From Modestobacter sp. L9-4 (GTDB lineage Bacteria; Actinomycetota; Actinomycetes; Mycobacteriales; Geodermatophilaceae), in assembly GCF_019112525.1 (NCBI RefSeq), contig NZ_CP077800.1:1364001-1428000 (forward strand): a DNA stretch of 64,000 nt. The letters are read 5' to 3'. A model generated the notes under the pieces. It was not told where the DNA came from. It saw only the letters and a program-made list of their open reading frames with translations, and did not search any database. Shown piece by piece: positions 24,811 to 50,032 of the stretch. How positions within the stretch are numbered: position 1 is the first letter of the stretch; every line of letters starts with the position of its first letter. Both the position numbers and the translations under genes were made by a program.

Positions 24811-24931
24811 GAAGAGTCCTCCAGGTGAGCCGGGTGCGGACAGGACTGTAGGTGACCGGGCCACCGCGACCGGTCCGGTGGCGGCGGTCCGTGGAGGCGA
24901 CCGGCGGTGCGCTGCCATGCTGGGCGGCGAC

Positions 24932-32484: not shown

Positions 32485-33348
32485 ATGCGCGGGATCATCC
32501 TGGCCGGTGGGACCGGCAGTCGTCTGTGGCCGATCACCCTCGGCGTCAGCAAGCAGCTCATGCCCGTCTACGACAAGCCGATGATCTACTACCCGCTGTC
32601 CACGCTGATGATGGCGGGGATCCGCGAGGTGCTGGTCATCACGACCCCCGAGGACCGCGACGCCTTCGCCCGCCTGCTGGGCGACGGCAGCCGGCTGGGG
32701 ATGCGGATCGAGTACGCGGTGCAGCCCCGGCCCGAGGGCCTGGCGCAGGCGTTCCTCATCGGCGCGGACTTCCTCGGCGGGCAGGCCGCCGCCCTGGTGC
32801 TGGGCGACAACATCTTCTACGGCGCGGGCCTGGGCACCGCGCTGTCCCGGCTGCCCGAGCCCGACGGCGGGCACGTGTTCGCCTACCACGTGGCCAACCC
32901 GCGGGCCTACGGCGTCGTGGAGTTCGACGACACCGGCCGGGTGCTCTCCATCGAGGAGAAGCCCGAGGTGCCCAAGAGCTCCTACGCCGTGCCGGGTCTC
33001 TACTTCTTCGGCCCCGACGTGGTCGACGTCGCCCGCGGCATCACCCCCAGCGCGCGGGGCGAGCTGGAGATCACCGCGGTCAACGAGCACTACCTGCGCC
33101 AGGACCGGTTGACCGTCACCGTCCTGGACCGGGGCACCGCCTGGCTGGACACCGGCACGTTCACCTCGCTGCGGCAGGCCACCGAGTTCGTCTCCGTGGT
33201 CGAGGAGCGGCAGGGCCTGAAGATCGGCTGCATCGAGGAGGTCGCCTGGCGCAACGGCTGGCTGGACGACGACGGCCTGCGCGCCGCCGCGGAGCCGCTG
33301 GCCAAGAGCGGCTACGGCGACTACCTGCTCGGCCTGCTCGCCGGCTGA
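32485..33348 (+). CDS. rfbA: Glucose-1-phosphate thymidylyltransferase RmlA
   Basis: 287 residues. The nucleotide loop is [20 protein letters not shown], followed by [33 protein letters not shown] (metal-binding Asp), and [19 protein letters not shown]. It activates glucose-1-phosphate with dTTP, the first step to dTDP-rhamnose, and is usually feedback inhibited by the end product. Predicted leaderless. A perfect 12-bp hairpin follows its stop at 33353-33382. Confidence 0.96.
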
Positions 33349-33573: not shown

Positions 33574-35130
33574 ATGGCCACACTCGCGGCAGCGCCGGCC
33601 CGGCCGCTCCTGCCCCGCCCGCGGATGTCCCGGGCCGACGCCGTCCTGGTCGCCGTGGTCGCGCTCGCCGGGACCGCGACCTGGCTGCTGGCCCGCCCGG
33701 CGCTCGTCGACGACGCCTACATCACGCTCTCCTACGCCCAGAACGTGGCGCTGCACGGCACGTGGGGCCTGCTGTCCGACGTCCCGTCCAACGCGGCCAC
33801 CTCCCCCGCGTGGGTGCTGCTCCTGGCCGCGACCACGGTGGTCGTCCGGGACACCGGCGCCGCGCTGGGGCTGCTGCACGTCACGATGGTCGTGAGCGCC
33901 GCCCTCGCGCTGCGGTCCGCGGCCCGGCACACCGGTCTCCCGTCGTGGGTGGGCCCGGTCGGCGCGGTCCTGGTCGTGGCGAACCCCCTGGTCCTGTCCA
34001 CGACGGGGCTGGAGACCCAGTTCCTCGTCGTGCTCTCCACCTGCCTCGTGGCCGCGGCGGCGGCCCGCCGTCCGGCGCTCTACGGGCTGGCCGCGGGGCT
34101 GCTCCTGCTGACCCGGATGGACACCGCGGTCGCGCTGGTGGTCCTCACGCTGCTCTCCCCCGCGGTGCTGCGCCGGCTGCACGTGGCGGTCGGCGTCGCG
34201 CTCGCGGTGGTGCTGCCCTGGTCGTGGTGGAGCTGGACGCACCTGGGCTCGGTGCTGCCGGACACGCTGGCCATCAAGTCCGGGCAGGAGGCGTGGAGCA
34301 GCTACGACGTCGGCAACGGCTGGGGGTGGTGGGCGCAGTTCGACAGCCGTCTCGTCGTCCTCGCCGCGTGGGGGCCGATGGCCGCGGGCGCGGTCGCGAC
34401 GCTGGGCCTCGTCGCGCTCGCCGTCCGGGCCCGGGAGCTCCGGCTGCTGCCGTGGACCGCCCTCGGCCTCGCCGGCCCGGCGCACTGGGCGACGCTGGCG
34501 TTCATCGGCGTCCCGCCCTACCACTGGTACTTCGGCTTCGTCATCGCCACCGGGACGCTCACCGTCGTCGCCCTGCTCGGCGCGCTCACCGCCACCGGGT
34601 GGTCCTGGACCCGGCCGGTCGTCGCCCTGGCGTGCACCGCGCTCCTGCTGCCCGCCGGCTACGTGGACCTCGCCCACCCGGCGCAGGGCAGCCTCGCGCC
34701 CGGGGACCGCGCCGCCGTGCCCTGGCGGGTGGCCCCGGTGCAGAGCAACTGGATGTCCAGCGCCGCCTACGAGGCCATGGGCGCGGACCTGCGCCGGCTG
34801 CTGACCACCCCGGACGGCCGGGTGCACCGGGTCGCCGCGTTCGGCGAGCTGGGCCACCTCGCGCACAGCTGCGACTGCCTCGTCGACGGGTTCGCCGACC
34901 CGGCGCTGCTGGGACCCGACCTCGCGGCGTTCCGCGCGTCGAGCCCACCGTGGCTGCAGGGGCTGCTCGACGTCGACCACCGGCACCGGGACGCCGACCG
35001 GGCGCCCGTCCCCCTCGTCGGACGCCTCGTCTACCTCCCCGACCCGCAGGTGCCCCCGCCCGGGGCACCCGCCTGGCCCGTGGACCTCAACCCGGGCCAC
35101 GGCCACGTGGTGCTGCTCCGCGAGCCCTGA
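33574..35130 (+). CDS. GT-C family membrane glycosyltransferase, paralogue 1
   Basis: 518 residues with about ten transmembrane helices. LVDDAYITLSYAQNVALHG at about 45-63 places a DD pair (46-47) in the first outer loop, the usual catalytic acid position of GT-C enzymes that use polyprenyl-phosphate sugars. SNAATSPAWVLLLAAT follows. VPPYHWYFGF and the C-terminal SCDCLVDGFADP recur in the paralogues at 40919 and 42456. The general layout resembles mycobacterial AftB-like arabinosyltransferases (from memory). Sugar and acceptor are unknown. 225 bases separate it from rfbA; no clear ribosome site. Confidence 0.7.
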   Translation: MATLAAAPARPLLPRPRMSRADAVLVAVVALAGTATWLLARPALVDDAYITLSYAQNVALHGTWGLLSDVPSNAATSPAWVLLLAATTVVVRDTGAALGLLHVTMVVSAALALRSAARHTGLPSWVGPVGAVLVVANPLVLSTTGLETQFLVVLSTCLVAAAAARRPALYGLAAGLLLLTRMDTAVALVVLTLLSPAVLRRLHVAVGVALAVVLPWSWWSWTHLGSVLPDTLAIKSGQEAWSSYDVGNGWGWWAQFDSRLVVLAAWGPMAAGAVATLGLVALAVRARELRLLPWTALGLAGPAHWATLAFIGVPPYHWYFGFVIATGTLTVVALLGALTATGWSWTRPVVALACTALLLPAGYVDLAHPAQGSLAPGDRAAVPWRVAPVQSNWMSSAAYEAMGADLRRLLTTPDGRVHRVAAFGELGHLAHSCDCLVDGFADPALLGPDLAAFRASSPPWLQGLLDVDHRHRDADRAPVPLVGRLVYLPDPQVPPPGAPAWPVDLNPGHGHVVLLREP

Positions 35131-35169
35131 GGCACCGGACGGCGGCCGCGCGGCCGCCGTCCGACGCGG

Positions 35170-36006
35170 TCAGGCCGGGACGACGTCGGTCGTGAGCGCC
35201 AGCTCCCGGCCGGCCGCGAACTCGGCGATCAGCGCCTGGACGGCCGCCTGGGCCAGCCCGTGGGAGTCCGAGCCCAGCAGCTGGTGCAGCGGGGCGTCGC
35301 CGGACTCCACGACGGCGATGATCGCCGCAGCCGCCCGCACCGGGTCGCCCAGCTGGGTGCCGGGCATCGCCTGGTGCGCCGTGGTCATCTCGCGGACCGC
35401 CTCGTAGCCGCTGCGCGTCGCAGACGGCAGGCCCAGCGAACGGGACGTGAGGAAGTCCGTGCGCAGGTAGCCCGGCTCCACCAGGTTGACCCGGATGCCG
35501 TGGTCGGCGACCTCGGCGGCGAGGGACCCGGTGAGGCCCTCGAGGGCGTACTTGCCGGCGCAGTACAGGCCCCAGCCGGGGAACGTGGTCAGGCCCAGGA
35601 TCGAGGAGACGTTGACGACGTGCCCGCTGCGGGTCGCGCGGAACAGCGGCAGGACCGCCCGCAGCACGTTCCACACCCCGAACACCTGGACGTCGAACAT
35701 CTCCCGCGCCTCGGCGTCGGTGACCTCCTCGACGGCGGCCAGGAACCCGTAGCCGGCGTTGTTGACCACGACGTCCAGACCCCCGAACCGCTCGGTGGTG
35801 GCCCGGACGGCGTCGTCCACGGCCTGCTCGTCGGTCAGGTCGACGGCGATGGCGAGCAGCCGGGAGGTGTCGACGTCGCCCAGGGCGGCGGTGAGGCGCT
35901 CGGTCGAGCGGGTGGTGGCGGTGACGTCCTCGCCGCGCTCGAGCAGCTGGCGGACGAGGGAGAGGCCGAGGCCGCGGGACGTGCCGGTGACGAACCAGGT
36001 GGACAT
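35170..36006 (-). CDS. Short-chain dehydrogenase/reductase
   Basis: 278 residues. WFVTGTSRGLGLSLVRQLLE binds the cofactor, DVVVNNAGYGFLAAVEEVTD has the NNAG motif, VVNVSSILGLTTFPGWGLYC then AGKYALEGLTGSLAAEV give Ser, Tyr and Lys. This subtype (oxidoreductase of the YXXXK classical class) is often paired with a divergent HTH regulator, as here with the gene at 36163. AGGAG at 36012-36016 precedes the ATG. Substrate unknown. Confidence 0.85.
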   Translation of the reverse strand: MSTWFVTGTSRGLGLSLVRQLLERGEDVTATTRSTERLTAALGDVDTSRLLAIAVDLTDEQAVDDAVRATTERFGGLDVVVNNAGYGFLAAVEEVTDAEAREMFDVQVFGVWNVLRAVLPLFRATRSGHVVNVSSILGLTTFPGWGLYCAGKYALEGLTGSLAAEVADHGIRVNLVEPGYLRTDFLTSRSLGLPSATRSGYEAVREMTTAHQAMPGTQLGDPVRAAAAIIAVVESGDAPLHQLLGSDSHGLAQAAVQALIAEFAAGRELALTTDVVPA

Positions 36007-36162
36007 GGGGAGCTCCTCGCGAGTGGTGGACCGGATGCCCACCACCCTCCGGCCGCGCCGGGGTCGCCGGGGCCGCACAGCTGGCCCTGCGCACCCTGGT
36101 CCGCGCCCGCCTGGGACTCAGCGACCCAGGTTGCGGGGGCGTCCTCCTGCCACGATGAGGGG

Positions 36163-37038
36163 GTGACCGCCGCCAACCAGGAGCTCGCCGACTTCCTCCG
36201 CCGGGCGCGGGGCGCGGTCGACCCCGCGCGCGCCGGACTGCCGGCCGACGGGCGCGTGCGGCGGGTCCCCGGGCTGCGCCGCGAGGAGGTCGCGCTGCTC
36301 GCCGGGGTGTCGACCGACTGGTACACCCGGCTGGAGCAGGGCCGGCGGATCACCCCCTCGGACGGCGTGCTCGACGCCGTCGCCCGCGCGCTGGACCTCG
36401 GCCCGGCCGGCCGCGCGCACCTGGGCCACCTGGTCGGCGCACCTGCAGGACGCGGCGCGCCTCGGGCCGCCACCCCGCAGCGGGCACGGCCGGGGCTGCG
36501 CCAGCTGATGGAGGCAATGGACGGGCAGCCGGCGCTGCTGCTGGGCCGGCGCACCGACGTGCTGGCCGCCAACCGGATGGCGCACGCGCTGCTCCCCGAC
36601 CTCGACCGGCTGCCGGCGCGGGAGCGGAACTACGCCCGGTGGGTGTTCTGCACCGAGGCCGCCCGGGCGCTGTTCGTGGACTGGGACGTGCAGGCGCGGG
36701 CGGTGGTGGAGAACCTGCGGCTGGACGTCGGCACCGACCCCGGCGACCGCGCGGCGGCGGAGCTGGTCGACGAGCTGTCGGCGGCCAGCCCGGACTTCCG
36801 GCGCTGGTGGGCCGAGCACCGGGTGCACCAGCGCACGCACGGCCAGAAGCGGCTGCGGCACCCCGTGGTCGGCGAGCTGACCGTCGACTACGAGACGCTC
36901 ACGTTGCCCGGCGACCCCGACCAGGCGCTGTTCGTCTACTCCGCACCGGCCGGCACGGCCTCCCGCGAGGCGCTGGACCTGCTGGCCAGCTGGTCGCTGA
37001 CCAGCGGTCCTCGCGTCGTGGGTCAGAAGCCCCGGTAG
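36163..37038 (+). CDS. XRE-type regulator with MmyB-like C-terminal domain
   Basis: 291 residues. An N-terminal helix-turn-helix (RVPGLRREEVALLAGVSTDW then YTRLEQGRRITPSDGVLDAV, about 25-70) is followed by a PAS-like MmyB domain (LLGRRTDVLAANRMAHALLP; RWVFCTEAARALFVDW; HRVHQRTHGQKRLRHPVVGE). Such proteins may sense fatty acids or other small ligands and usually control a neighbouring oxidoreductase, here the divergent SDR gene. The GTG start has GATGAGGG just before it. Its end overlaps the DNA glycosylase gene by 16 bases, tail to tail. Confidence 0.85.
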   Translation: MTAANQELADFLRRARGAVDPARAGLPADGRVRRVPGLRREEVALLAGVSTDWYTRLEQGRRITPSDGVLDAVARALDLGPAGRAHLGHLVGAPAGRGAPRAATPQRARPGLRQLMEAMDGQPALLLGRRTDVLAANRMAHALLPDLDRLPARERNYARWVFCTEAARALFVDWDVQARAVVENLRLDVGTDPGDRAAAELVDELSAASPDFRRWWAEHRVHQRTHGQKRLRHPVVGELTVDYETLTLPGDPDQALFVYSAPAGTASREALDLLASWSLTSGPRVVGQKPR

Positions 37039-37958
37039 TTCGTCGGGGCCATCCGCGGGCCGCGCTTGGGGGGCATGCTGCCGCCGATGCCGAGCAGCCG
37101 GACGACGCGCTGGCGGTGACCGCGCCAGGGCTCGAGCAGCTCCAGCATGCCGGCGTCGTCGGTCTTGCGGCCGGCCAGCGACCAGCCGACCAGGTTCTTC
37201 AGGTGGTAGTCGCCGACGCTGACCTCGTCCGGGCAGCCGAGCGCGCGCTGCACGACCTCGGCGGCGGTCCACACCCCGATGCCGGGCACCGACTGCAGCC
37301 GGCGGCGCAGCAGCGCGCAGTCCTCCTCGTGGTCGCGCATCTCCGTGACCTCCAGCCGGGAGGCCGCCGAGGCGACCGCCCGCAGCGCGCGTCGCCGGGC
37401 GCCGTCCAGGCCGCAGGCGTGCCACTGCCAGTCGGTGACGGCCAGCACCCGCTCCGGGGAGGGCAGCACCCGCATCCCCTCCGGCGCGGGGCCGGGTGCC
37501 GGCTCGCCGGCCAGCCGGAGCAGCTCCCGCCAGGTGCGGTGCGCCTCGATGCCGGTGACCTTCTGCTCCAGGACGGCGGGCAGAGCTGCGTCCCACACCC
37601 GCCCGGTGCTGCCCAGCCGCAGCCACGGGCTGCTGCGGTGCAGCCGCTCGACCAGCGGGTGGGCCGCGGCGTCGAAGCCGTCGACGCAGTCCTCGGCGCC
37701 GAGCCAGCGGGCCGCGGTCGCCCCGGCCCAGTCCGCGCCCGGCCCCCAGGCCTGCACCCGCACCGCGGTGGCGCCGCCGGACAGCCGCACCGTGGCCGGG
37801 CCGTCGGGGGTGCTCGTCGTCCGCCAGACGCCGTCCTCGGCCATCCGCAGCGTCGGGTCGCTCGTGCCGCGCCGGTCCCGGGACAGGATCCGCCGCACGT
37901 CGATCGGCCAGTCCGGGGTGAAGACGGCGTCGTGACCGAGCTGGGTCGCGGAGCTCAC
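37023..37958 (-). CDS. DNA-3-methyladenine glycosylase-like (HhH-GPD, AlkA type)
   Basis: 311 residues. An N-terminal AlkA-like beta domain precedes the HhH-GPD helical domain: LPAVLEQKVTGIEAHRTWRE, then the hairpin SVPGIGVWTAAEVVQRALG, and the catalytic aspartate in EVSVGDYHLKNLVGWSLAGR. No FeS cluster cysteines follow, so it is AlkA-like, not MutY/Nth-like. It excises alkylated purines in base-excision repair. The ATG overlaps the stop of the upstream SDR gene (ATGA), giving an SDR-glycosylase operon. Confidence 0.88.
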   Translation of the reverse strand: MSSATQLGHDAVFTPDWPIDVRRILSRDRRGTSDPTLRMAEDGVWRTTSTPDGPATVRLSGGATAVRVQAWGPGADWAGATAARWLGAEDCVDGFDAAAHPLVERLHRSSPWLRLGSTGRVWDAALPAVLEQKVTGIEAHRTWRELLRLAGEPAPGPAPEGMRVLPSPERVLAVTDWQWHACGLDGARRRALRAVASAASRLEVTEMRDHEEDCALLRRRLQSVPGIGVWTAAEVVQRALGCPDEVSVGDYHLKNLVGWSLAGRKTDDAGMLELLEPWRGHRQRVVRLLGIGGSMPPKRGPRMAPTNYRGF

Positions 37959-38725
37959 TTGGGCGCCATCCGGAGGGCGCCGTCCATCCGGATCACCTCG
38001 CCGTTGAGGTAGTCGTGCCGGATGACGTCCAGCGCGAGCTCGGCGTAGTCCTCAGGGCGGGCCAGCCGCTTCGGGAACGGGATGCCGGCGGCCAGGCTCT
38101 GCTGCGCGGCCTCCGGCAGCCCGGCGACCATCGGGGTGTCGACCAGGCCGGGGGCGATGGTGCAGACCCGGACGCCGACCGAGGACAGGTCCCGCGCGGC
38201 GGGCAGGGTGAGGCCCACGACGCCGCCCTTGCTGGCGGCGTAGGCGACCTGGCCGATCTGGCCCTCGTAGGCGGCCACCGAGGCGGTGTTGAGGACGATG
38301 CCGCGCGAGCCGTCGGCGGAGGGCTCGGTGCGGGCCATCGCCGCGGCGGCCAGCCGCAGCACGTTGAAGGTGCCGACCAGGTTGACCATCACGGTGCGGG
38401 TGAAGTCGGGCAGCTCGTGCGGCGCCCCGTCGCGGGTGAGCGTGCGCCCCACCCAGGCGATGCCGGCGCAGTTCACCGCGATCCGCAGCGGCCGGCCCTT
38501 GCCGGACGCCTCGTCGACCGCCGCCTGCACCGACGCCTCGTCGGTGACGTCGGTGCGCACGAACGTCGTGTCGCCCCCGAGCTCGGCGGCCAGCGCGGTG
38601 CCCAGCTCCTCCTGCAGGTCCAGCACCGTGACCGCCACCCCGGCGGCGGTGAGCGCGCGGGTGGTGGCGGCGCCGAGCCCGGAGGCCCCACCGGTGACGA
38701 CAGCGGCGACAGCGAGGTCCTTCAT
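37955..38725 (-). CDS. SDR, 3-hydroxyacyl-CoA dehydrogenase type II-like
   Basis: 256 residues. VVTGGASGLGAATTRALTAA then VTVLDLQEELGTALAAELGG (NAD-type Asp), VNCAGIAWVGRTLTRDGAPH, and VAYAASKGGVVGLTLPAARD match the HSD17B10/3-hydroxy-2-methylbutyryl-CoA dehydrogenase group. GIPFPKRLARPEDYAELALD then NGEVIRMDGALRMAPK is its usual end. It probably oxidises 3-hydroxyacyl-CoA in fatty or branched-chain acid breakdown. I chose the ATG at 38725 over a TTG at 38734 because TACCTT stands seven bases upstream. Confidence 0.88.
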   Translation of the reverse strand: MKDLAVAAVVTGGASGLGAATTRALTAAGVAVTVLDLQEELGTALAAELGGDTTFVRTDVTDEASVQAAVDEASGKGRPLRIAVNCAGIAWVGRTLTRDGAPHELPDFTRTVMVNLVGTFNVLRLAAAAMARTEPSADGSRGIVLNTASVAAYEGQIGQVAYAASKGGVVGLTLPAARDLSSVGVRVCTIAPGLVDTPMVAGLPEAAQQSLAAGIPFPKRLARPEDYAELALDVIRHDYLNGEVIRMDGALRMAPK

Positions 38726-38732
38726 GCCGGCC

Positions 38733-38738
38733 AAGGTA
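38733..38738 (-). promoter_or_regulatory. Predicted -10 element of the SDR-glycosylase operon (leaderless)
   Basis: TACCTT on the minus strand, seven bases before the ATG at 38725. Confidence 0.5.
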
Positions 38739-38789
38739 ACCCGCCCAAGCGGCCCGGCTCCAGGGTCGCGCCGGGAGCCGGGGGCGCTG

Positions 38790-39887
38790 TCAGGCGAACC
38801 GCGGCCCGAACTGCGCCTCGACCTCGGCGAGCAGCGCCTTGACCCGCTCGGCGTCGGCGACCGGGCAGACCATCGTCACGTCCGCGGTGTGCACCACGAC
38901 GCTGTCGCGGACACCGACCAGGGCGATGACGTGCTCGGGGTCGTCGGAGAGCACCACGTTGCCGGCGCTGTCCAGCAGCACGGTCAGGCCGCGGGTGGCG
39001 TTGCCGGCCTCGTCGGTGACCAGCGTGTGCGCCAGCGCCGGCCAGGAGCCGACGTCGAGCCAGTCGACGTCGAGGTCGACGACCACGACCCGGCCGGCCT
39101 CGGCGGCGGCCGGCTCGAGCACGGCGTAGTCGACGCTGATCTTCGGCAGCGTCGGGAAGACCTCGGCCAGCACGGCGTCCCGCTCGGGGCCGGCGGGGGC
39201 GGCGACGATCCGGTCCAGCCCGGCCGCGGACGCCGGCAGGTGCTCGGCGAGGGCGTCGAGCACCGTCTGCGCCCGCCACACGAACATGCCGGAGTTCCAC
39301 ACGTACTCGCCGCTGGCCAGGTAGGCCTCGGCGGTGGCGCGGTCCGGCTTCTCCCGGAACGAGGCCGCCTCGGCGGCCCCCGGCACCTCGGTGGGGGCGC
39401 CCTTCTGCACGTAGCCGAAACCGGTCGCCGGCGAGGTCGGGGTCACCCCGAGGGTGACCAGCGCCCGCGGGCGGACGGCGAGGACGTCGTAGGCGGTGTT
39501 GAGCGCGGCGGCGAACTCGGCCACCGGGCGGATGACGTGGTCAGCGCTGACCACCGCGAGCTCCGCGTCGGGGTCGACGTCGGCCACCAGCGCGGCGGCC
39601 AGCCCCACCGCGTTGGCGGTGTCCCGCGCCACCGGCTCGAGCACCAGCCGGTCCGGGCGCAGCCGGGGCAGCGCGGCCCGGACGGCGTCGGCGTAGCGCG
39701 CCGCGGTGCAGACCCAGATCTGCTCGGCCGGCAGGACCGCCTCCAGCCGGGTGAACGCCTCGGCGAGCAGGCTGTGCGCACCCGCCTCGTCGGCGACGAC
39801 GTCCAGGAGCTGCTTGGGACGTGCCTGCCGGGACAGCGGCCACAGCCGAGTACCCGAACCGCCCGCCATGATCACCGCGTGCCGCAC
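38790..39887 (-). CDS. manC: Mannose-1-phosphate guanylyltransferase ManC
   Basis: 365 residues. HAVIMAGGSGTRLWPLSRQ and RPKQLLDVV are the pyrophosphorylase motifs; SADHVIRPV, FREKPDRATAEAYLASGEYV and NSGMFVWRAQTVLDALAEHL are typical for GDP-mannose enzymes. It makes GDP-mannose from mannose-1-phosphate supplied by manB. It lies 13 bases downstream of wbbL, as in mycobacteria (Rv3264c-Rv3265c). The GTG at 39887 has AGGAGG seven bases upstream. It has no C-terminal isomerase domain. Confidence 0.94.
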   Translation of the reverse strand: MRHAVIMAGGSGTRLWPLSRQARPKQLLDVVADEAGAHSLLAEAFTRLEAVLPAEQIWVCTAARYADAVRAALPRLRPDRLVLEPVARDTANAVGLAAALVADVDPDAELAVVSADHVIRPVAEFAAALNTAYDVLAVRPRALVTLGVTPTSPATGFGYVQKGAPTEVPGAAEAASFREKPDRATAEAYLASGEYVWNSGMFVWRAQTVLDALAEHLPASAAGLDRIVAAPAGPERDAVLAEVFPTLPKISVDYAVLEPAAAEAGRVVVVDLDVDWLDVGSWPALAHTLVTDEAGNATRGLTVLLDSAGNVVLSDDPEHVIALVGVRDSVVVHTADVTMVCPVADAERVKALLAEVEAQFGPRFA

Positions 39888-39900
39888 AGCCGTGCCTCCT

Positions 39901-40806
39901 TCAGTCCAGCTCGTCGGCGCCGCGCTGGGAGCGGGCACCGGCGGCCACCCGGCCGCTGACGTACGAGATCACCATGCGCAGCCCCAGACCGACACGCAGC
40001 ACCCCCCGCAGGGGTGCGTTCACCGGCCCGGGGTGCTGCGCGGACAGGTAGCGCAGCGCGCTGGTGTGGTGGGCCCGCTGCATGCGGTGCGGCTCGCGGC
40101 GGGTGGCGTGCCCGCCCTCGTGCACCACGACCGCCGAGGGGACGTAGACGGCGAGGTGCCCGCGGCGGCCCAGCCGGGCGGCGAGGTCGACGTCCTCGAA
40201 GTACATGAAGTAGCCGGGGTCGAAGCCGCCGACGGCGTGGAAGGCGGCCAGGTCGACCAGGAAGCAGGAGCCCGACAGCCACCCGGCCGGGCGCTCGCGG
40301 GGGGCCTCGCGCTCGCGGCGGTACCGCGCCGTCCAGGGGTTGGCCGGCCAGGCCCAGCCGAGCACGGCGTGCCCGATGCCCGTGGACAGCCGGGGCAGGT
40401 CGCGGGCGGAGGGGTACAGCTCGCCCTCGGGGGTCAGGATCGCCGGGCCGAGCGTCGCCGCGCGTGGCCACCGTGCCGCGGCGGCCAGCAGCTCGTCGAC
40501 CGAGCCGGGGGTGAACCGGACGTCGGGGTTGGCCACCAGGGCCCACCCCTCGGTCGCGTCGGCGAGCCCGGCGTTGACGGCTGCGCCGTAGCCGATGTTC
40601 CCGCCGGTGCGCAGCAGCCGGACGTGGGCGTGCGCCGCGGTGACCCGCTCCGGTGCGCCGTCGGTCGAGCCGTTGTCGGCCAGGACCACCTCGGTGGGCG
40701 CGGCGGTGGCCTCGGCCAGCGACTCGACGAACCCGTCGAGGGAGGTGCCGGGCGAGTAGGTCACCGCCACGACGCGGAGCGGCTGAGTCGGTACCGTGAC
40801 TGCCAC
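39901..40806 (-). CDS. wbbL: Linker-unit L-rhamnosyltransferase WbbL (GT2)
   Basis: 301 residues. VVAVTYSPGTSLDGFVESLA and VVLADNGSTDGAPERV start a GT-A fold; LVANPDVRF takes the DxD place; GWLSGSCFLVDLAAFHAVGG and FMYFEDVDLAARLGRRGHLA match family 2 rhamnosyltransferases. WbbL moves rhamnose from dTDP-rhamnose to decaprenyl-PP-GlcNAc, forming the linker on which galactan is built. Position beside manC and the rml genes agrees with M. tuberculosis. The GTG at 40806 has TAGGGT seven bases upstream. Confidence 0.9.
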   Translation of the reverse strand: MAVTVPTQPLRVVAVTYSPGTSLDGFVESLAEATAAPTEVVLADNGSTDGAPERVTAAHAHVRLLRTGGNIGYGAAVNAGLADATEGWALVANPDVRFTPGSVDELLAAAARWPRAATLGPAILTPEGELYPSARDLPRLSTGIGHAVLGWAWPANPWTARYRREREAPRERPAGWLSGSCFLVDLAAFHAVGGFDPGYFMYFEDVDLAARLGRRGHLAVYVPSAVVVHEGGHATRREPHRMQRAHHTSALRYLSAQHPGPVNAPLRGVLRVGLGLRMVISYVSGRVAAGARSQRGADELD

Positions 40807-40813
40807 GTCGCCG

Positions 40814-40819
40814 ACCCTA
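40814..40819 (-). promoter_or_regulatory. Predicted -10 element of wbbL-manC (leaderless)
   Basis: TAGGGT on the minus strand, seven bases before the GTG at 40806. Confidence 0.5.
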
Positions 40820-40918
40820 GAGGCCCGGTCACGGCGATGCCGCTCCGGCTCCCGGTTCCGCGGCCGCGGGTCCGGCCCGCGTCCACCGCCCGCCCACCGC
40901 CCCGGAGGGGAGACCCGC

Positions 40919-42466
40919 ATGGCCGCCCTGCCCACCGACGTTCGGCCGGGCACCCCCGACGCCGACCGCCCGGCGCGGCGCCGACTGCCCGCCGACCTCG
41001 CCTGGGGCCTGCCCGGCGCACTGCTCGGCCTGCTGCTGGTGCTGGCCGCCCACCGCGGGCTCATCGACGACGCCTACATCACGCTGGACTACGCCCGGAA
41101 CGTCGCGACCGACCTGCACTGGGGGCTCATCCCCACCGAGGAGTCCAACGCCGCCACCTCCCCGCTCAACGTGCTGCTGCTGGCGCTGGGCACCGCACTG
41201 GTGCGGCTGGTCACCGGCGAGGTGCGCCCGGTCGCCGGCTTCGGCGTGCTCAGCGTCGCCGCCTGCGCCGCGCTGGCCGTGTGGGCGGCCCAGACGGCCC
41301 GGCGGGTCGGGGTCTCCCCCGCCTGGTCGCTGGCGGCGCTGGCCGTCGTCCTGGCCAACCCCTTCGTGAGCTCCTCGGTGGGGCTGGAGGTGCTGCCGGT
41401 CGCGGCGCTGCTCACCGGGCTGCTCGCCCAGGCGGTGCGCGGTGCCCGGGTGGGCGCCGGGCTGCTCACCGGGCTGCTGGTGCTGACCCGGCTGGACCTG
41501 GCCGTCGTGGCCGCCGTGGTGCTGCTGTGCACCCCGGCGCTGCGCCGCCGCCCCTGGGTCACCCTCGCGGTGGCCGCGGGGACGGCCGGCCCCTGGTACG
41601 TCTTCAGCTGGTTCCACTTCGGCTCCGCGATCCCGAGCACCTTCGCGATCAAGACGCTGCAGAGGTCCTTCGGCGACCAGACCTTCGCCAACGGGCTGTG
41701 GACGCTGTGGGGCCCGCGCGGCGCCCTGCCGCTGTGGGTGGCGCTCGTCCCGGCGCTGGTCGGTCTGGTCACCGTCGTCGCGCTGCTGGCCTCCGGCGTC
41801 CGGCGCCGGCTGCCCGCGCACCTGTGGCCGCTGGCCGGGCTGGGCCTGGGCGGGGTGGCCTACCACCTGGCCTACGCGCTGCTGGGCGTGCCGCCCTACC
41901 AGTGGTACTACGCCCCCTCGACGGTCGCGCTCGGGGTCACCGGGGTCCTCGGCCTGGCGCTGCTGCTCCGCCAGCAGCTGCCGGCCGGCCGGCGGCAGGG
42001 TGCGGTCGCGCTCGGGACGGCGCTGGTGGTGGCGGCGCTGGCCTTCCTCACCCTCGACGGCCGGTCGCTGCCCTGGACGCACCCGGTGTACTTCGGCAAC
42101 TGGGCCGAGCCCGCGCAGTACCGCGACATCGGCGCCGAGGTGGGCCGGCTGGTCGGGCCCGACACCGTGATCGCCCCGCCGGAGATCGGCACGCTGGCCT
42201 TCGGCTGCGACTGCTCGATGGTGGACGCGTTCTCCGACCCCGGCCGCACCCTGGAGCTCATCGACCAGCGGATCGACCGGTCGGGCCCGGTCGGCCGGTT
42301 CCTGCTGTCGGTCAACTTCGCCCACCTCGACCGCGACCAGCAGCCCCGGCCCGCCCAGTACCGGCTGGTCTGGACCCAGGGCGAGGTGCCCGCCGGCGTC
42401 CCCTCCTGGCCGACGACCTCCCCCGCCACCGGCCCCGCCACGCTGTACCTCGACCGTGTCGGCTGA
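40919..42466 (+). CDS. GT-C family membrane glycosyltransferase, paralogue 2
   Basis: 515 residues, about ten transmembrane helices. The outer-loop acid pair is at 50-51 (LIDDAYITLDYARNVATDLH), followed by ESNAATSPLNVLLLALGTAL. VPPYQWYYAPSTVALGVTGV marks a later loop. The C-terminal outer part has FGCDCSMVDAFSDPGRTLEL. All three signatures are shared with the genes at 33574 and 42456. GGAGGGGAGA precedes the ATG. It overlaps paralogue 3 by 11 bases, so they are co-translated. Divergent from wbbL. Probably a wall polysaccharide glycosyltransferase using a decaprenyl-phosphate sugar; donor and acceptor unknown. Confidence 0.72.
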   Translation: MAALPTDVRPGTPDADRPARRRLPADLAWGLPGALLGLLLVLAAHRGLIDDAYITLDYARNVATDLHWGLIPTEESNAATSPLNVLLLALGTALVRLVTGEVRPVAGFGVLSVAACAALAVWAAQTARRVGVSPAWSLAALAVVLANPFVSSSVGLEVLPVAALLTGLLAQAVRGARVGAGLLTGLLVLTRLDLAVVAAVVLLCTPALRRRPWVTLAVAAGTAGPWYVFSWFHFGSAIPSTFAIKTLQRSFGDQTFANGLWTLWGPRGALPLWVALVPALVGLVTVVALLASGVRRRLPAHLWPLAGLGLGGVAYHLAYALLGVPPYQWYYAPSTVALGVTGVLGLALLLRQQLPAGRRQGAVALGTALVVAALAFLTLDGRSLPWTHPVYFGNWAEPAQYRDIGAEVGRLVGPDTVIAPPEIGTLAFGCDCSMVDAFSDPGRTLELIDQRIDRSGPVGRFLLSVNFAHLDRDQQPRPAQYRLVWTQGEVPAGVPSWPTTSPATGPATLYLDRVG

Positions 42467-44009
42467 CCCCGCTGCGGCGACCGGCGCACACGCACGGACA
42501 CCCGCCGCCCCGCCCCCGGCCGCCGGCCCGGACGACCGGCGGCGCGACGCCGGGTGGGCCGCACTCGGCGGGGTGCTGGCCGCGCTGGTGTTCCTGCTGG
42601 TGCGCTACAGCCTCATCGACGACGCCTACATCACGCTGTCCTACGCCCGGAACCTCGCCGAGCACCTGCACTGGGGCCTCACCCCGTACCGGACGGCGAA
42701 CAGCGCGACCTCCCCGCTCAACGTGCTGCTGCTGGGCGCGGCGGCGTTCGTCGTCCGCGACCCGGTGTGGGGGCTGGGCCTGACCTCGGTGCTGCTCACC
42801 GCGGCGCTGGGCGGGGGGCTGTCCCGGCTGGCCCGGCGGCTGCAGCTGACCGGCGTGACCACCGCGCTGGGCCTGGCGCTGCTGGTGCTGTCCCCGCTGA
42901 TGCTCTCGGTCGTCGGCATGGAGATGACGCTGGCGGTGACCCTGCTGGTGTGGCTGGCCGTCGCCGCCGTCGAGGAACGGCCGGTGCTGCTCGGCCTGCT
43001 GACCGCGGCACTGCTGCTCACCCGGGTCGACCTGCTGCTCTTCCCGCTGGTGCTCCTCGCGCTGCCCGGGGTGCGCCGCCGGGCCGGGCGGTCGCTGCTG
43101 GTCGCCGTGCTCGCGGCCGCCCCCTGGTACCTGTTCAGCTGGTGGGTGCTCGGTGCCCTCGTGCCCGACACGCTGGTGCTCAAGACGGTGGCCAGCGCCG
43201 GCTGGGGCAAGTGGCACTTCGGCAACGGCCCCTACCTCTACCTGCGGGAGTACCCGGTCGCCGCGGTGCTCACGGCGCTGCCGGCGCTGGCCGGGGTCGC
43301 CGCCCTGGGCTGGTGGGCGGCGCGCCGGGCCTGGCAGCGGCCCCGCTTCGCCGGCCTCGGCGTGCCGGCCGCGCTCGGGGTCGCCGGCGTCCTGCACTTC
43401 CTGGCGTACACGCTGCTGAGCCCGCCGCCCTACCACTGGTACTACGCCCCCTCGGTCGGCGCGCTGACCCTGGTGGCCGCGGTCGCCGCCGGCACCACCG
43501 GCCGTGGGCGGCCGGCCGCCCCGGCGCCCGCTGCCCGCCGGCTGCCCGCCCTCGCGCCGCTGGTCGCCGGCGTCCTGCTGGTGGTCGCCGACCTCGGGAC
43601 GGCGCTGGCCCGCCCACTGCCCTGGGACGTCGCCCCGGTCATGACCAACTGGGCGACCGCGGCGGAGTACCGCAGCACCGGGGAGGCCATCGCCCCGCTG
43701 GTGGCCGGACAGGTCGTCTCCAGCCCGGGTGAGATCGGCACGCTGGCCTACTGGTGCCGGTGCGACATCGTCGACAGCTTCTCCGACCCCGGACGGCTGG
43801 AGCCGCTGATCGCCGAGCGGCGTGCCGCCGCGGGCCCGGTGATGCGGCTGCTGCTGCAGGCCAACTTCGCCAACCACGACGTGGTGCCGGCCGCCGTCCC
43901 GACCCGCGCGCTCGTCTGGCTGCACGTCCCCGCGACCGCGGGGGCGTGGCCGGCGGACTCGCCGTGGCGCGGCCCCGGCAGCTTCCAGCTGCGCACGCTC
44001 ACCCCCTGA
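42456..44009 (+). CDS. GT-C family membrane glycosyltransferase, paralogue 3
   Basis: 517 residues. The acid pair is at 55-56 (LIDDAYITLSYARNLAEHLH), then NSATSPLNVLLLGAAAFVV. PPPYHWYYAPSVGALTLVAA and WCRCDIVDSFSDPGRLEPLI repeat the signatures of paralogues 1 and 2. It is closest in layout to paralogue 2, from which it likely arose by tandem duplication. The GTG lies within the last codons of the preceding gene. glf and glfT2 follow on the same strand, so the group probably serves arabinogalactan or a related wall glycan. Confidence 0.72.
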   Translation: MSADPAAATGAHARTPAAPPPAAGPDDRRRDAGWAALGGVLAALVFLLVRYSLIDDAYITLSYARNLAEHLHWGLTPYRTANSATSPLNVLLLGAAAFVVRDPVWGLGLTSVLLTAALGGGLSRLARRLQLTGVTTALGLALLVLSPLMLSVVGMEMTLAVTLLVWLAVAAVEERPVLLGLLTAALLLTRVDLLLFPLVLLALPGVRRRAGRSLLVAVLAAAPWYLFSWWVLGALVPDTLVLKTVASAGWGKWHFGNGPYLYLREYPVAAVLTALPALAGVAALGWWAARRAWQRPRFAGLGVPAALGVAGVLHFLAYTLLSPPPYHWYYAPSVGALTLVAAVAAGTTGRGRPAAPAPAARRLPALAPLVAGVLLVVADLGTALARPLPWDVAPVMTNWATAAEYRSTGEAIAPLVAGQVVSSPGEIGTLAYWCRCDIVDSFSDPGRLEPLIAERRAAAGPVMRLLLQANFANHDVVPAAVPTRALVWLHVPATAGAWPADSPWRGPGSFQLRTLTP

Positions 44010-44090: not shown

Positions 44091-45356
<1,266 letters not shown>

Positions 45357-45363
45357 CGAGGCC

Positions 45364-47337
45364 ATGACGACCACCACAGACCCCACCGACACCGCCGACG
45401 CCCCCGTCTCCCTCGAGGTCGTCAGCGAGCCCGCCGCCGAGGACCTCACCCCCGGCAAGGCGGTCGAGCTGGTGCAGCGCATCCTCATGCCGCGGCCGGC
45501 CGACCAGCTCAGGGTCCGCAGCCTCTACCTCGACGAGGTCAACTCCGCCGAGCGCGTGAAGGCCCGCGACCGGTTCAGCGCCGAGGTGCCGGCCGGCTCG
45601 GAGCTGTCCTTCGCCACGTACTTCAACGCCTTCCCGGCCAGCTACTGGCGGCGCTGGACGGTGCTGAAGACGATCGTGCTGCAGGTGACCGTCGCCGGCA
45701 CCTGCCGCATCGACGTCTACCGGTCCAAGGCCGACGGCGAGTCCATGCACGTCACCGGCGCCACGCACGACGGCGCCAGCGAGCGCACGCTGGAGTTCGA
45801 GCTGGACCTGATGCCGTTCATCGACGGCGGCTGGTACTGGTTCGACGTCACCACCGAGGACGCCACCACCGTGCGCAGCGCCGGCTGGTACGCGCCGCAG
45901 GCGCCGGAGCAGGAGCCCAAGCTCGGCATCGGCATCTGCACCTACAACCGCCCCGTCGACGCCGTGGCCGCGCTGACCGCGCTGGTCGAGGACGAGACGG
46001 TGCGCGACCTGCTGCACCTGGTCACCGTCGCCGACCAGGGCAACAACCACGTCACCGACACCCCGCTGTACCCGGCGGTCGCCGAGGCCCTGGGCGACCG
46101 GCTGCGGATCGTCGAGCAGCCCAACTTGGGCGGCAGCGGCGGGTTCGCCCGCACGATGTTCGAGTCGTTCACCAACAGCGACGTGACCCACCACATCCTG
46201 CTCGACGACGACATCCAGCTCGAGCCGGACAGCATCCTGCGGGCGCGTGCCTTCGCCAGCTACACGAGCAAGCCGATGCTGGTGGGCGGGCAGATGCTGG
46301 CCCTGCAGGACCGCTCGGTGCTGCACAGCATGGGTGAGATCGTCGACCGGTCGAACTTCTTCTGGCGCAACGCCCCGCACACCGACTACAACCACGACTT
46401 CGGCCGACGCTCGCTGCGGGAGTCCCCCGAGCTGCACCGGCGCATCGACGTCGACTACAACGGCTGGTGGATGTGCCTGATCCCCCGGACGGTGTTCGAG
46501 GAGATCGGCATGCCGCTGCCGGTCTTCATCAAGTGGGACGACGCCGAGTACGGCCTGCGCGCCTTCGCCGCCGGCTTTGCGACGGTGTCCCTGCCGGCCA
46601 CCGCGATCTGGCACCTGTCGTGGGGCGACAAGGACGACGCCAGCGACTGGCAGGCGTACTTCCACATCCGCAACCGGCTCATCGCCGCGGCGCTGCACTC
46701 CCCGTACAAGCACGGCGGCAAGCTCTTCCCGCAGATGATCAAGACCGATATCCGGTTCCTGATCAACCTGCAGTACTCGACGGTCGAGCTGCACCAGATG
46801 GCCTACCGCGACTTCCTCGCCGGGCCCTCGGAGCTGTTCGCGGGCATGGCCGGCTCGGTGGGCAGAGCGCGGGAGAAGCGCAACACCCACGCCGACGGCC
46901 GCGTGCTGCCCTCCTCGGCGGACCTGCCGCTGCCCTCGATGAGCACCGCCGAGGCGCTGCGGTTCCGCCGGATCCCGGTGACGCCGACCCAGATCGGCTC
47001 CACGTTGGTGAAGGCGATCGCCAACAACGTCTCCTCGGTGGACCCCGAGCACAAGGAGGTGCCGCAGCTGAACCTGGCCTTCCAGGACGCCCGCTGGTTC
47101 CTCCTGGCCCGGCTCGACAGCGCCACCGTCGGCACCGCCGACGGTCGTGGCGTCACCTTCCGCCAGCGCGACCCGCAGGCCTTCCGCGAGCTGTCCGCGA
47201 CCTCGGCGCAGCTGCTGCGCCGGATCTACCGCGAGTGGCCGCAGCTGCAGGAGCGCTACCAGGCCGGGGCGGGTGAGCTCACCTCGGTCGAGCGCTGGGG
47301 CGAGGCGTTCCGCGACTGGGGCTCGCGCCAGGTCTGA
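45364..47337 (+). CDS. glfT2: Galactofuranosyltransferase GlfT2
   Basis: 657 residues, close to the mycobacterial length. An N-terminal beta-sandwich precedes the GT-A domain (KLGIGICTYNRPVDAVAALT). Catalytic residues seen: DDD at 281-283 (ILLDDDIQLEPDS), WDD at 391-393 (FIKWDDAEYGLRAFA), and His 417 (AIWHLSWGDKDD). C-terminal helices complete the tetramer fold. It polymerises galactan with alternating 1,5 and 1,6 bonds from UDP-galactofuranose. Co-transcribed with glf. Ends at two strong hairpins. Confidence 0.97.
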   Translation: MTTTTDPTDTADAPVSLEVVSEPAAEDLTPGKAVELVQRILMPRPADQLRVRSLYLDEVNSAERVKARDRFSAEVPAGSELSFATYFNAFPASYWRRWTVLKTIVLQVTVAGTCRIDVYRSKADGESMHVTGATHDGASERTLEFELDLMPFIDGGWYWFDVTTEDATTVRSAGWYAPQAPEQEPKLGIGICTYNRPVDAVAALTALVEDETVRDLLHLVTVADQGNNHVTDTPLYPAVAEALGDRLRIVEQPNLGGSGGFARTMFESFTNSDVTHHILLDDDIQLEPDSILRARAFASYTSKPMLVGGQMLALQDRSVLHSMGEIVDRSNFFWRNAPHTDYNHDFGRRSLRESPELHRRIDVDYNGWWMCLIPRTVFEEIGMPLPVFIKWDDAEYGLRAFAAGFATVSLPATAIWHLSWGDKDDASDWQAYFHIRNRLIAAALHSPYKHGGKLFPQMIKTDIRFLINLQYSTVELHQMAYRDFLAGPSELFAGMAGSVGRAREKRNTHADGRVLPSSADLPLPSMSTAEALRFRRIPVTPTQIGSTLVKAIANNVSSVDPEHKEVPQLNLAFQDARWFLLARLDSATVGTADGRGVTFRQRDPQAFRELSATSAQLLRRIYREWPQLQERYQAGAGELTSVERWGEAFRDWGSRQV

Positions 47338-47452: not shown

Positions 47453-48349
47453 TCAGCCGCGGGTGAACCGCTCCCGCCGGCCGGCACGGGTCAGCCGCAG
47501 CCACTCCTGCCAGCCCGCGCGGTCCCGCCGGGTGACCAGGAAGAACCAGCTGAAGCGCACCAGCTCCAGCGGCAGCAGCCAGCGCATGCCCGGCTGGGCC
47601 ATCAGGTAGCCGCGGTTGCGGTAGGTGAAGAACCGCTTGACGTCGTTGGCCGGGTACTGCGCCGACAGCCGCCCGCCGAGGATCGGCTCGAACTCCGTCG
47701 TCCCCTCGGGGTGGAGATAGGCGGCGGCGGTGCAGGTGCCGAACGGCAGACCGGCGCGCAGCAGCCGCCGGTGCACCTCGGTCTCGTCGCCCCGGAAGAA
47801 CAGCCGGTAGTCGGGCACCCCGACCGCGTCGAGCGCCTCGGCGCGGAAGAGCGCGCCGTTGAACAGCGACGCGTAGCTCGGCAGCAGCTCGATGCCGGCG
47901 AAGTCGCTGCGGTACCGGCGCCACCGCAGCCCGCGTCGCAGCGGGAAGGCCAGCCGGTCGGGGTCGGCCTGGTCGGTGACCAGCGGGGAGACCTCGGCCA
48001 GCCCGTGCCGCTCGGCGCAGTCCAGCAGGGTGGCCAGCACCCGGTCGTCGGCGGGGCGGCCGTCGTCGTCGGCGCACCAGACCCAGTCCGCGCCGCGGGC
48101 CAGGGCCGCCAGCATGCCCAGGGCGAAGCCCCCGGCCCCACCGAGGTTGCGGTGGCTGGGCAGGTAGGTGGCGTCGAGCCCCGAGGCGCGGACGACGTCC
48201 TCGGCCGGGTCGTCGGGGCCGTTGTCGACCACGATCACGTGGTCGACCGGGCGGGTCTGGGCGGCGATCGCGGCCAGGCTGAGCGCCAGCAGCTCACGAC
48301 GGTGCCGGGTCACGATGACCGCGACCACCGACTGGCCGGCGGCGCTCAC
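47453..48349 (-). CDS. glfT1: Galactofuranosyltransferase GlfT1-like (GT2)
   Basis: 298 residues. VVAVIVTRHRRELLALSLAA, VIVVDNGPDDPAEDVVRASG, HRNLGGAGGFALGM and WVWCADDDGRPADD form the GT-A fold with its DDD motif; RLFFRGDETEVHRRLLRAGL is the later acid loop. In the position between wzm/wzt and galactan genes this is the GlfT1 homologue (Rv3782), which adds the first galactofuranose residues to the rhamnosyl linker. The GTG overlaps the wzt stop (GTGA). Confidence 0.88.
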   Translation of the reverse strand: MSAAGQSVVAVIVTRHRRELLALSLAAIAAQTRPVDHVIVVDNGPDDPAEDVVRASGLDATYLPSHRNLGGAGGFALGMLAALARGADWVWCADDDGRPADDRVLATLLDCAERHGLAEVSPLVTDQADPDRLAFPLRRGLRWRRYRSDFAGIELLPSYASLFNGALFRAEALDAVGVPDYRLFFRGDETEVHRRLLRAGLPFGTCTAAAYLHPEGTTEFEPILGGRLSAQYPANDVKRFFTYRNRGYLMAQPGMRWLLPLELVRFSWFFLVTRRDRAGWQEWLRLTRAGRRERFTRG

Positions 48350-49113
48350 GCGGTGGTCGCCTTGTAGGCCGCCAGGACCTCTTCCAGCTCGCCCTGCTGC
48401 CGGATGCGGCCGTGCTCCATCCAGATCGCGGTGTCGCACAGCTCGCGGAGGAACTCGTCGGAGTGCGAGGCGAACACCAGCAGCCCGGCGCGGTCGACCA
48501 GCTCCGACAGCCGCTTGCGGGACTTCTCCAGGAACGCGGCGTCGACGGCGCCGATGCCCTCGTCGAGCAGCAGGATCTCCGGGTCGATGCTGGTGACCAC
48601 GCCGAGCGCCAGGCGCACCCGCATGCCGGTGGAGTACGTGCGCAGCGGCATCCGCAGGAAGTCACCGAGCTCGGTGAAGTCCGCGATGTCGTCGATGCGG
48701 GTCTCCATCTGCTTGCGCGTCATCCCCAGGAAGAGCCCGCGGATGATGATGTTCTCCAGGCCCGAGACCTCCGGGTCCATGCCGACGCCGAGGTCGAACA
48801 CCGGCGCGACCCGGCCGTTGATGACCGCCGACCCTCGGGTGGGCTCGTAGATGCCCGACAGCAGCCGCAGCAGCGTGGACTTCCCGGCGCCGTTGTGGCC
48901 GACCAGCCCGACGCGGGCGCCGTGGCCGAGCTCGAGGGTGATGTCGCGCAGCGCCTCGATGATCGGCACCCGGGCCTCGCTGGCGATGTTGCCGCCGACG
49001 ACCCCCATGACCGTCTTCTTCAGCGACCGGCTCTTGGCGTCGAAGATCGGGAAGTCGACGCAGGCGTTGGTGGTCGTGATGCCGACCGTGACGTTCTCTC
49101 GGGACACGTTCAC
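48346..49113 (-). CDS. wzt: ABC transporter ATP-binding protein Wzt (RfbE type)
   Basis: 255 residues. Walker A is GLVGHNGAGKSTLLRLLSG, the signature is YSTGMRVRLALGVV, and Walker B is ILLLDEGIGAVD, followed by FASHSDEFL. The N-terminus (about 1-45) is specific to polysaccharide exporters. There is no C-terminal carbohydrate-binding domain, so export does not need a capped chain end. In M. tuberculosis the homologue (Rv3781) with Rv3783 is proposed to move lipid-linked galactan across the membrane. Overlaps wzm by four bases and glfT1 by four. Confidence 0.93.
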   Translation of the reverse strand: MNVSRENVTVGITTTNACVDFPIFDAKSRSLKKTVMGVVGGNIASEARVPIIEALRDITLELGHGARVGLVGHNGAGKSTLLRLLSGIYEPTRGSAVINGRVAPVFDLGVGMDPEVSGLENIIIRGLFLGMTRKQMETRIDDIADFTELGDFLRMPLRTYSTGMRVRLALGVVTSIDPEILLLDEGIGAVDAAFLEKSRKRLSELVDRAGLLVFASHSDEFLRELCDTAIWMEHGRIRQQGELEEVLAAYKATTA

Positions 49114-49946: not shown

Positions 49947-49953
49947 GGGCAGA

Positions 49954-49959
49954 ACGCTA
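49954..49959 (-). promoter_or_regulatory. Predicted -10 element of wzm-wzt-glfT1 (leaderless)
   Basis: TAGCGT on the minus strand, seven bases before the ATG at 49946. Confidence 0.55.
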
Positions 49960-50032
49960 CCCACGGGTCACCCGCAGGCCCGCGCCCGGCCCGGCGCGTC
50001 GGCCTGTGACGACGAGCCGGGCGGGACAGGGG

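Follow-up and report, generated by a model that had tools for sequence, protein, structure and literature searches.

What is known of wall arabinan comes almost entirely from bacteria with mycolates, in which Emb proteins make the 5-linked backbone. A cryo-EM study of AftB, the terminal beta-(1->2)-arabinofuranosyltransferase, describes a donor analogue held by D62, T91, E172, R221, T274 and R372 (PMC12041299), and GT-C systems of a similar kind, with ribose or xylose as the sugar, are described in PMC11127046. Here we describe three GT-C proteins, P1, P2 and P3, encoded in a 64,000-nucleotide stretch of the Modestobacter sp. L9-4 genome (NZ_CP077800.1, positions 1,364,001 to 1,428,000; hereafter the window). 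They are probably AftB-like arabinofuranosyltransferases of an unnamed GT-C family that act on galactan and depend on decaprenyl-phosphoryl-beta-D-arabinofuranose (DPA).

Three paralogous GT-C proteins and their likeness to AftB

The three genes are arranged as follows (positions are those of the window):

33574..35130, + strand: P1, GT-C protein of 518 residues; DD at 33709-33714, CDCLVDGFADP at 34870-34902
40919..42466, + strand: P2, GT-C protein of 515 residues from its ATG; DD at 41066-41071, CDCSMVDAFSDP at 42206-42241
42456..44009, + strand: P3, GT-C protein of 517 residues with a GTG start; DD at 42618-42623, CRCDIVDSFSDP at 43755-43790

The P2 reading frame is open upstream of its ATG as far as a GTG at 40796. 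The start of P3 overlaps the end of P2 by 11 nt, and glf begins 124 nt after P3. The initial annotation took the genes for paralogues, and BLASTP between the copies bore this out, with identities of 35–41% and E-values of ≈6e-72 for P2 and P3, 2e-50 for P2 and P1 and 3e-47 for P3 and P1. When the genome (4.22 Mb, 99.98% complete) was searched with P2 as the query at E ≤ 0.001, only the P1, P2 and P3 loci were returned.

The D-D pair and the DDAYITL sequence that had been noticed in the first loop were present in all three proteins. The other motifs proposed as common to the three were less uniform. The C-terminal motif CxCxxVDxF[AS]DP was exact in P2 and P3, but is one residue shorter in P1, a form common to P1 and its three nearest relatives, all from Kineococcus. 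The SNAATSPLNVLLL segment was exact in P2, while P3 has ANSATSPLNVLLL and P1 has SNAATSPAWVLLL, and the PPYxWYY loop held except in P1, which reads PPYHWYF.

None of the three proteins had a Pfam match at E ≤ 1, which includes the Emb domain PF04602, and the sole NCBIfam match, of P3 at E 0.18, was far under its cut-off. The AftB equivalog model NF041481 was not listed for P1, P2 or P3 at E ≤ 1, and P3 scored 20.3 bits against the GT87 model (PF09594; AftC, PimE and kin), for which the cut-off is 25. A three-protein profile gave no match at E ≤ 1 among the sequences of solved structures, and a search of a plasmid collection for the family gave none either. We looked for strong profile matches of all three proteins to one characterised family and saw none, and the initial annotation could not tie the double cysteine signature to a named enzyme. 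The three proteins represent a family of ≈500 residues left blank by current Pfam and NCBIfam models.

P1 and P2 were modelled with AlphaFold, both with high confidence (pLDDT 90.7 and pTM 0.91 for P1; 94.7 and 0.93 for P2). In a Foldseek search of the PDB, AftB was the top match of both models (P2: 9dlf, E 2.3e-7, and 9dlh, E 5.2e-7; P1: 9dlh, E 5.6e-6, and 9dlf, E 1.8e-5). At E ≤ 1e-3, P2 matched AftB, ALG9, ArnT, AglB and PglB, and P1 matched most of these. The GT-C fold proposed in the initial annotation is therefore well supported, and the traits of the GT-C (GT-CA) superfamily are present: many transmembrane helices, a catalytic Asp in the first outer loop and a fold shared with PglB, ArnT and the ALG enzymes.

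For comparison with AftB, we used the sequence of a mycobacterial locus (L090; NF041481, 1196.7 bits), to which the AftB profile adds 20 further loci. In profile–profile alignment the N-terminal halves scored 44.3, versus at most 19.1 in 30 column-shuffled controls, which identifies the catalytic half as homologous to that of AftB. AftB residues D62, E172, R221 and T274 align with P2 D51, E157, R191 and T241, so that four of the six donor-site residues have an equivalent. For the C-terminal part, the P1 and P2 models predict a domain with helices and strands that would be shorter than the two-lobed one of AftB.

Relatives of P1–P3 and their association with DprE1

Relatives were found by one scan of bacterial genome contigs with DNA patterns for LIDDAYIT and PPYHWY. 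The scan gave 101 confirmed relatives, from which 80 loci (L004–L083) were retained. The hosts are Geodermatophilaceae, Kineococcus, Pseudonocardiaceae, Actinopolyspora, a few Mycobacteriaceae, Thermomicrobiales, one Caballeronia and one Microvirga. For a 60-row alignment we chose 54 loci, removed L032 (its match was not within one frame) and added four second copies and P1, P2 and P3; L046, L050 and L051 (broken Thermomicrobiales frames), L013, L083 and near-duplicates were left out.

Sixteen columns were invariant, including D50, D51, T80, R191, W329, Y330, E422 and D436. At the donor-site positions, D51 and R191 were thus kept in 60/60 sequences, T241 in 58/60 (Ser in two) and E157 in at least 90%. 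Each of the two motif cysteines was kept in 58/60, the only exceptions being the two proteobacterial sequences, and apart from this pair no column held 15 or more cysteines. The double cysteine is thus far from absent among the orthologues. Since the relatives were fetched by the LIDDAYIT and PPYHWY patterns, the conservation of those two segments is partly built in, whereas that of the cysteines is not. The two relatives lacking the double cysteine are L080:8001-9332 (Caballeronia) and L082:8001-9524 (Microvirga), and DprE1-like proteins under the curated cut-off are present in both genomes. In an Amycolatopsis-type neighbour protein (L100:6001-8130; family profile E 2.4e-9), GAVAYFGEHHVVDLIGL occupies the place of the cysteine motif in the C-terminus. 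Judged by eye, the double cysteine therefore seems to be a specialised version of an element that other GT-C proteins also have at the C-terminus.

In a maximum-likelihood tree, P1 grouped with three Kineococcus sequences (4 rows, 100/100) and P3 fell inside a Geodermatophilaceae clade (6 rows, 100/100). P2 belonged to a clade of Geodermatophilaceae and two Mycobacteriaceae (9 rows, 100/99), adjoining other Kineococcus sequences. The root is unsure, as the two outgroup rows did not lie on one side of a branch. A recent local duplication giving rise to P2 and P3 was rejected, because they are in separate supported clades, each shared with other genera. The separate clades indicate that the copies are old and probably distinct in function. 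The two mycobacterial members of the P2 clade come from Mycolicibacterium stellerae (L005) and a Mycobacteriaceae metagenome-assembled genome (L007), where the P2 relative lies near a GlfT2-like gene and exists besides three Emb copies; the L005 locus also holds GlfT1-like and exporter-like genes. Their nesting within Geodermatophilaceae suggests that they were gained by horizontal transfer.

We then scored the best few candidates per genome in 249 genomes of the order. Positives numbered 105 for DprE1, 87 for Emb, 70 for AftA and 28 for the GT-C family, and AftB was matched in 62 at E ≤ 1e-5, 55 of them at E ≤ 1e-30. DprE1 was present in all 28 family-positive genomes versus 105/249 overall (hypergeometric probability 3e-12, on the assumption, untrue here, of independent genomes). 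The same 28 included 25 with Emb, 17 with AftA and 8 with an AftB match at E ≤ 1e-30, and on these counts we rejected both a simple replacement of Emb everywhere and a complementarity with AftA or AftB. The three Emb-less genomes were the window's own, Goekera deserti and one more of the same taxonomic family. Within that taxonomic family, the 13 DprE1-positive genomes comprised 5 with the GT-C family and 5 with Emb (2 having both), and 5 with neither.

DprE1 and Emb were also checked in named carriers, covering 43 of the 80 loci. DprE1 was matched in 37 and Emb in 25, and all 35 actinobacterial carriers were above the DprE1 cut-off. The 18 carriers without an Emb match were six Thermomicrobiales, the Caballeronia, the Microvirga and ten Actinobacteria: Modestobacter lapidis, a Geodermatophilaceae isolate, Goekera deserti, Geodermatophilus nigrescens, Kibdelosporangium persicum, Kineococcus siccus, K. 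rubinsiae, K. vitellinus, Kineococcus sp. TRM81007 and one metagenome-assembled genome. All ten have DprE1. Several of the Emb-less carriers are draft genomes, absence from which is weak evidence. Kineococcus xinjiangensis has both the GT-C family and an Emb match.

Two further observations concern the window's own taxonomic family and genus. Ten genomes of the family (G016, G057, G064, G085, G170, G182, G190, G198, G202 and G225) encode an Emb-domain protein (PF04602, E ≈1e-64 to 1e-92) and have no DprE1 at E ≤ 1e-60; these Emb-like proteins perhaps use another donor. When positions 27000-60749 of the window were compared with five genomes of the same genus (G039, G048, G092, G099 and G182), DprE1 was present in two of the six genus genomes and the GT-C family in the window's own only. 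The arabinan gene set is patchy within the genus.

Neighbourhoods were compared in stretches of up to 8 kb on each side of the 80 loci, with phmmer matches above 60 bits. At least one of Glf, GlfT1, GlfT2, AftA, DprE1, DprE2 and the phosphoribosyltransferase was found at 50/80 loci (DprE1 31, DprE2 31, phosphoribosyltransferase 30, Glf 27, GlfT2-like 27, AftA 3). Near-copies of the family adjoin decaprenyl-phosphate phosphoribosyltransferase, DprE1 and DprE2, and for two of P1's three relatives from Kineococcus (L048 and L063) a PAP2 phosphatase and the phosphoribosyltransferase lie directly downstream.

The galactan and arabinan gene set of the window

The genes surrounding P1–P3 are the following:

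24397..24753, - strand: GtrA-type small membrane protein, candidate DPA flippase, part of frame 24397-25749 (PF04138, E 1.4e-17; role inferred)
32485..33348, + strand: RmlA-like protein upstream of P1, of the dTDP-rhamnose set (by eye from the translation)
38790-39938: ManC-like (TIGR01479, 258.7 bits, under the cut-off of 373)
39901..41064, - strand: GT2 glycosyltransferase divergent from P2, a WbbL-like candidate by inference (PF00535, E 1e-14); true start probably short of 41064
44133..45356, + strand: glf, UDP-galactopyranose mutase (TIGR00031, 346.8 bits, cut-off 303.75; PF03275)
45325..47337, + strand: glfT2, galactan polymerase (PF19320, E 8e-70; PF17994, E 2e-57)
47453..48439, - strand: glfT1, galactofuranosyltransferase (NF050113, 500.4 bits, cut-off 330)
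48346..49104, - strand: ABC transporter ATPase, Wzt-like (PF00005)
49110..49964, - strand: ABC transporter permease, Wzm-like (PF01061)
50033-52846, - strand: N-acetylmuramoyl-L-alanine amidase with ten LGFP repeats (PF08310)
52968..55022, - strand: AftA-like priming arabinofuranosyltransferase (PF12250, E 6e-88; PF12249, E 2e-42)
57073..57828, - strand: DprE2 (NF053786, 367.8 bits, cut-off 250)
57825..59219, - strand: DprE1 (NF053785, 708.8 bits, cut-off 500)
59203..60198, - strand: decaprenyl-phosphate phosphoribosyltransferase, UbiA family (NF008978, 415.5 bits, cut-off 207)
60201..60749, - strand: PAP2 phosphatase, candidate for 5-phosphate removal (PF01569, E 2e-13; role inferred from position)

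An LCP protein is also encoded in this set. With Glf, GlfT1, GlfT2, AftA and the genes of the DPA pathway in the window, P1–P3 lie within a galactan and arabinan gene set, as had been noted, and the DPA pathway is represented by DprE1, DprE2 and the decaprenyl-phosphate phosphoribosyltransferase, all above their curated cut-offs. LGFP-repeat proteins related to the window's amidase occur at 14 of the 80 family loci.

Searches for Emb (PF04602), AftD (PF11847) and AftB (NF041481, E ≤ 1e-5) gave no match in the window's genome, while Corynebacterium glutamicum, used as the positive control, was matched. GT87 matches were found at three other places in the genome, one of them under the cut-off. 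One of these proteins is nearest to PimE-like proteins (NF009915, 163 bits, under the cut-off of 413). L126, which we take to be mycobacterial AftC, was matched only by a 153-residue stretch of the PimE-like protein, and the genome's GT87 proteins are closer to others, so that AftC is probably absent. Another of the three is a GT87-like membrane protein (L085:1114-2670) that shares 43–45% identity with L127 and L128, from a mycobacterium and a pseudonocardial genome; it is conserved and unnamed.

Proposed role of P1–P3 and comparison with known systems

In the mechanism we infer for P1–P3, covering donor, acceptor, linkage and the role of the cysteines, DPA would be used on the outer face and the acceptor would be lipid-linked galactan primed by AftA. 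The N-terminal half would form an AftB-type catalytic core: the catalytic Asp would belong to the DD at the first-loop tip, the donor phosphate would be bound by the invariant Arg of LTRxD, and the sugar would be held by a Glu and a Thr. The periplasmic C-terminal domain, which carries the double cysteine, probably gives the acceptor site its shape and determines the linkage, and P1, P2 and P3, as members of three old clades, probably each form a linkage of their own. With no match to Emb, AftB or AftD in the genome, P1–P3 are the foremost candidates for the enzymes that extend, branch or cap its arabinan. That they might finish arabinan was one option of the initial annotation, and it is supported by AftB as the top PDB match, by the gene set and by the co-occurrence with DprE1. 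The undescribed wall glycan also suggested there is not needed, as the genes are those of an arabinogalactan pathway in which the arabinan enzymes are unusual. P1–P3 may take the place of Emb in Emb-less genomes, although we put this at somewhat less than even.

Published sugar analyses report the presence of arabinose without its D or L form or its linkages. Arabinose was found in whole-cell hydrolysates of Modestobacter deserti CPCC 205119 (= Goekera deserti) and, according to a table note, of M. lapidis DSM 100206 (PMC8602919). These are two Emb-less, DprE1-positive carriers, which we count in favor of arabinosyl transfer by P1–P3. Arabinose is also reported for the genus Goekera (PMC9686282), and arabinose and galactose for Kineococcus species (PMC7472656). 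A literature search on Emb-less arabinan brought up, in the portions of text it covered, no paper on this GT-C family.

Several points weigh against the proposed role. We know of no arabinose analysis of the window's own strain. The TM-scores to AftB were only ≈0.5, and ALG9 or ArnT scored equally well; with AglB also close behind, the fold alone indicates GT-CA, leaning to AftB. The C-terminal halves scored 12.7 against AftB, under the shuffled maximum of 24.9. AftB T91 aligns with P2 A78, two residues off the invariant T80, and R372, essential in AftB, has no counterpart in the P2 alignment; the invariant W329-Y330 of the PPYxWYY loop may or may not fill its place. Of the 28 family-positive genomes, 11 lack an AftA match and 25 also have Emb, and the family thus does not simply substitute for either. 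That 5 of the 13 DprE1-positive genomes of the window's taxonomic family lack both the family and Emb shows that something else can do the work and that DPA can be used without the family. All six Thermomicrobiales genomes have the family without a DprE1 match. Finally, arabinose was first reported for Geodermatophilus nigrescens DSM 45408, which carries two family copies and DprE1, and according to PMC5742155 was not found on re-analysis.

P1–P3 might also serve for decoration only, each adding a single arabinofuranose to galactan or to a short primer, so that Emb-less species would have no long arabinan. We regard this as a serious, if tentative, possibility. The nearest characterised relative, AftB, is described as a capping enzyme (PMC12041299), the retention of Emb in 25/28 family-positive genomes fits an accessory role, and only minor arabinose is described for Kineococcus rubinsiae (PMC7472656), which has the family and no Emb match. 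On the other hand, the presence of three old clades in a single Emb-less genome points to more than a single step, and Kineococcus aurantiacus, whose genome is outside the tested set, is described with arabinogalactan (Yokota 1993).

P1–P3 and their relatives could also constitute a second machinery for wall arabinan, working independently of Emb, in several Geodermatophilaceae and Kineococcus, a reading that we offer as tentative. Two or three AftB-like enzymes, each with its own old clade and linkage, would make all of the arabinan from DPA on galactan primed by AftA. The family would also prime where AftA is missing, and within the acceptor domain the CxC pair would serve as a fixed or redox-sensitive element. 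If this is true, such walls would not depend on the Emb target of ethambutol.

The donor might instead be another polyprenyl-phosphate pentofuranose, ribofuranose or xylofuranose, as in the three-component systems of Citrobacter. In the Thermomicrobiales, whose six tested genomes gave no DprE1 match, a phosphoribosyltransferase adjoins the family gene at three loci from two genomes (L011:2677-9407, L050:2747-6166 and L051:6054-9221). Scans of two of them with NF008977 (cut-off 234) scored 252 and 255 bits, and at L011 an epimerase-like frame of the SDR type is present as well. By analogy with the ribose and xylose systems shown in PMC11127046, these loci are likely to represent a ribofuranose or xylofuranose system outside the Actinobacteria. 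For P1–P3 themselves such a donor is unlikely, as DprE1 was present in every actinobacterial carrier tested (28/28 and 35/35) and the window has both DprE1 and DprE2.

Attachment of mannose or rhamnose was the other option of the initial annotation. We took it to mean polyprenyl-phosphate-mannose or rhamnose-type GT-C enzymes with the linker, a mannan or a lipoglycan as acceptor, and rejected it as very improbable: dTDP-rhamnose and GDP-mannose synthesis genes (the latter the ManC-like gene) lie between the copies, the fold is common to the Dol-P-Man enzymes ALG9 and ALG12 and P3 approaches the GT87 model, but AftB is the top match, its donor residues are kept, and the co-occurrence with DprE1, together with the adjoining DPA genes, indicates a polyprenyl-phosphate pentofuranose donor. 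Moreover, the transferases that use dTDP-rhamnose are GT-A enzymes working in the cytoplasm.

Arabinosyl transfer from DPA by P1–P3 would explain the source of wall arabinose in non-Emb lineages. A family with an AftB donor site, the company of DprE1 and Emb-less hosts would also provide a small system for studying the choice of linkage by GT-C arabinosyltransferases.

Among known systems, AftB, a retaining enzyme (NF041481; 9dlf, 9dlh), is the most similar in the GT-C fold, the first-loop DD, four donor residues, the top PDB match of the P1 and P2 models and the DPA-pathway context. However, AftB has ≈670–700 residues versus ≈515 in P1–P3, which also differ in the unalignable C-terminal half, the missing R372 counterpart and the double cysteine. 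Judged by their sequences, P1–P3 are AftB-like at the donor site, yet not AftB by model, length, C-terminal domain or R372. EmbA, EmbB, EmbC and Emb (PF04602) are likewise DPA-dependent enzymes of wall arabinan and fill the same slot in the pathway, but they are twice as long, belong to another family and gave a weaker fold match than AftB. AftA, AftC and AftD are GT-C arabinofuranosyltransferases of the same pathway, though of other families. Outside this pathway, the GT136 enzyme ORF12 of Citrobacter youngae is similar by description, being an outer-face GT-C enzyme with a polyprenyl-phosphate pentofuranose donor made by a phosphoribosyltransferase and a phosphatase, with or without an epimerase; it differs in acting on O-antigen side chains and in being accompanied by a MATE protein, where the window has a GtrA-type candidate flippase (PMC11127046).

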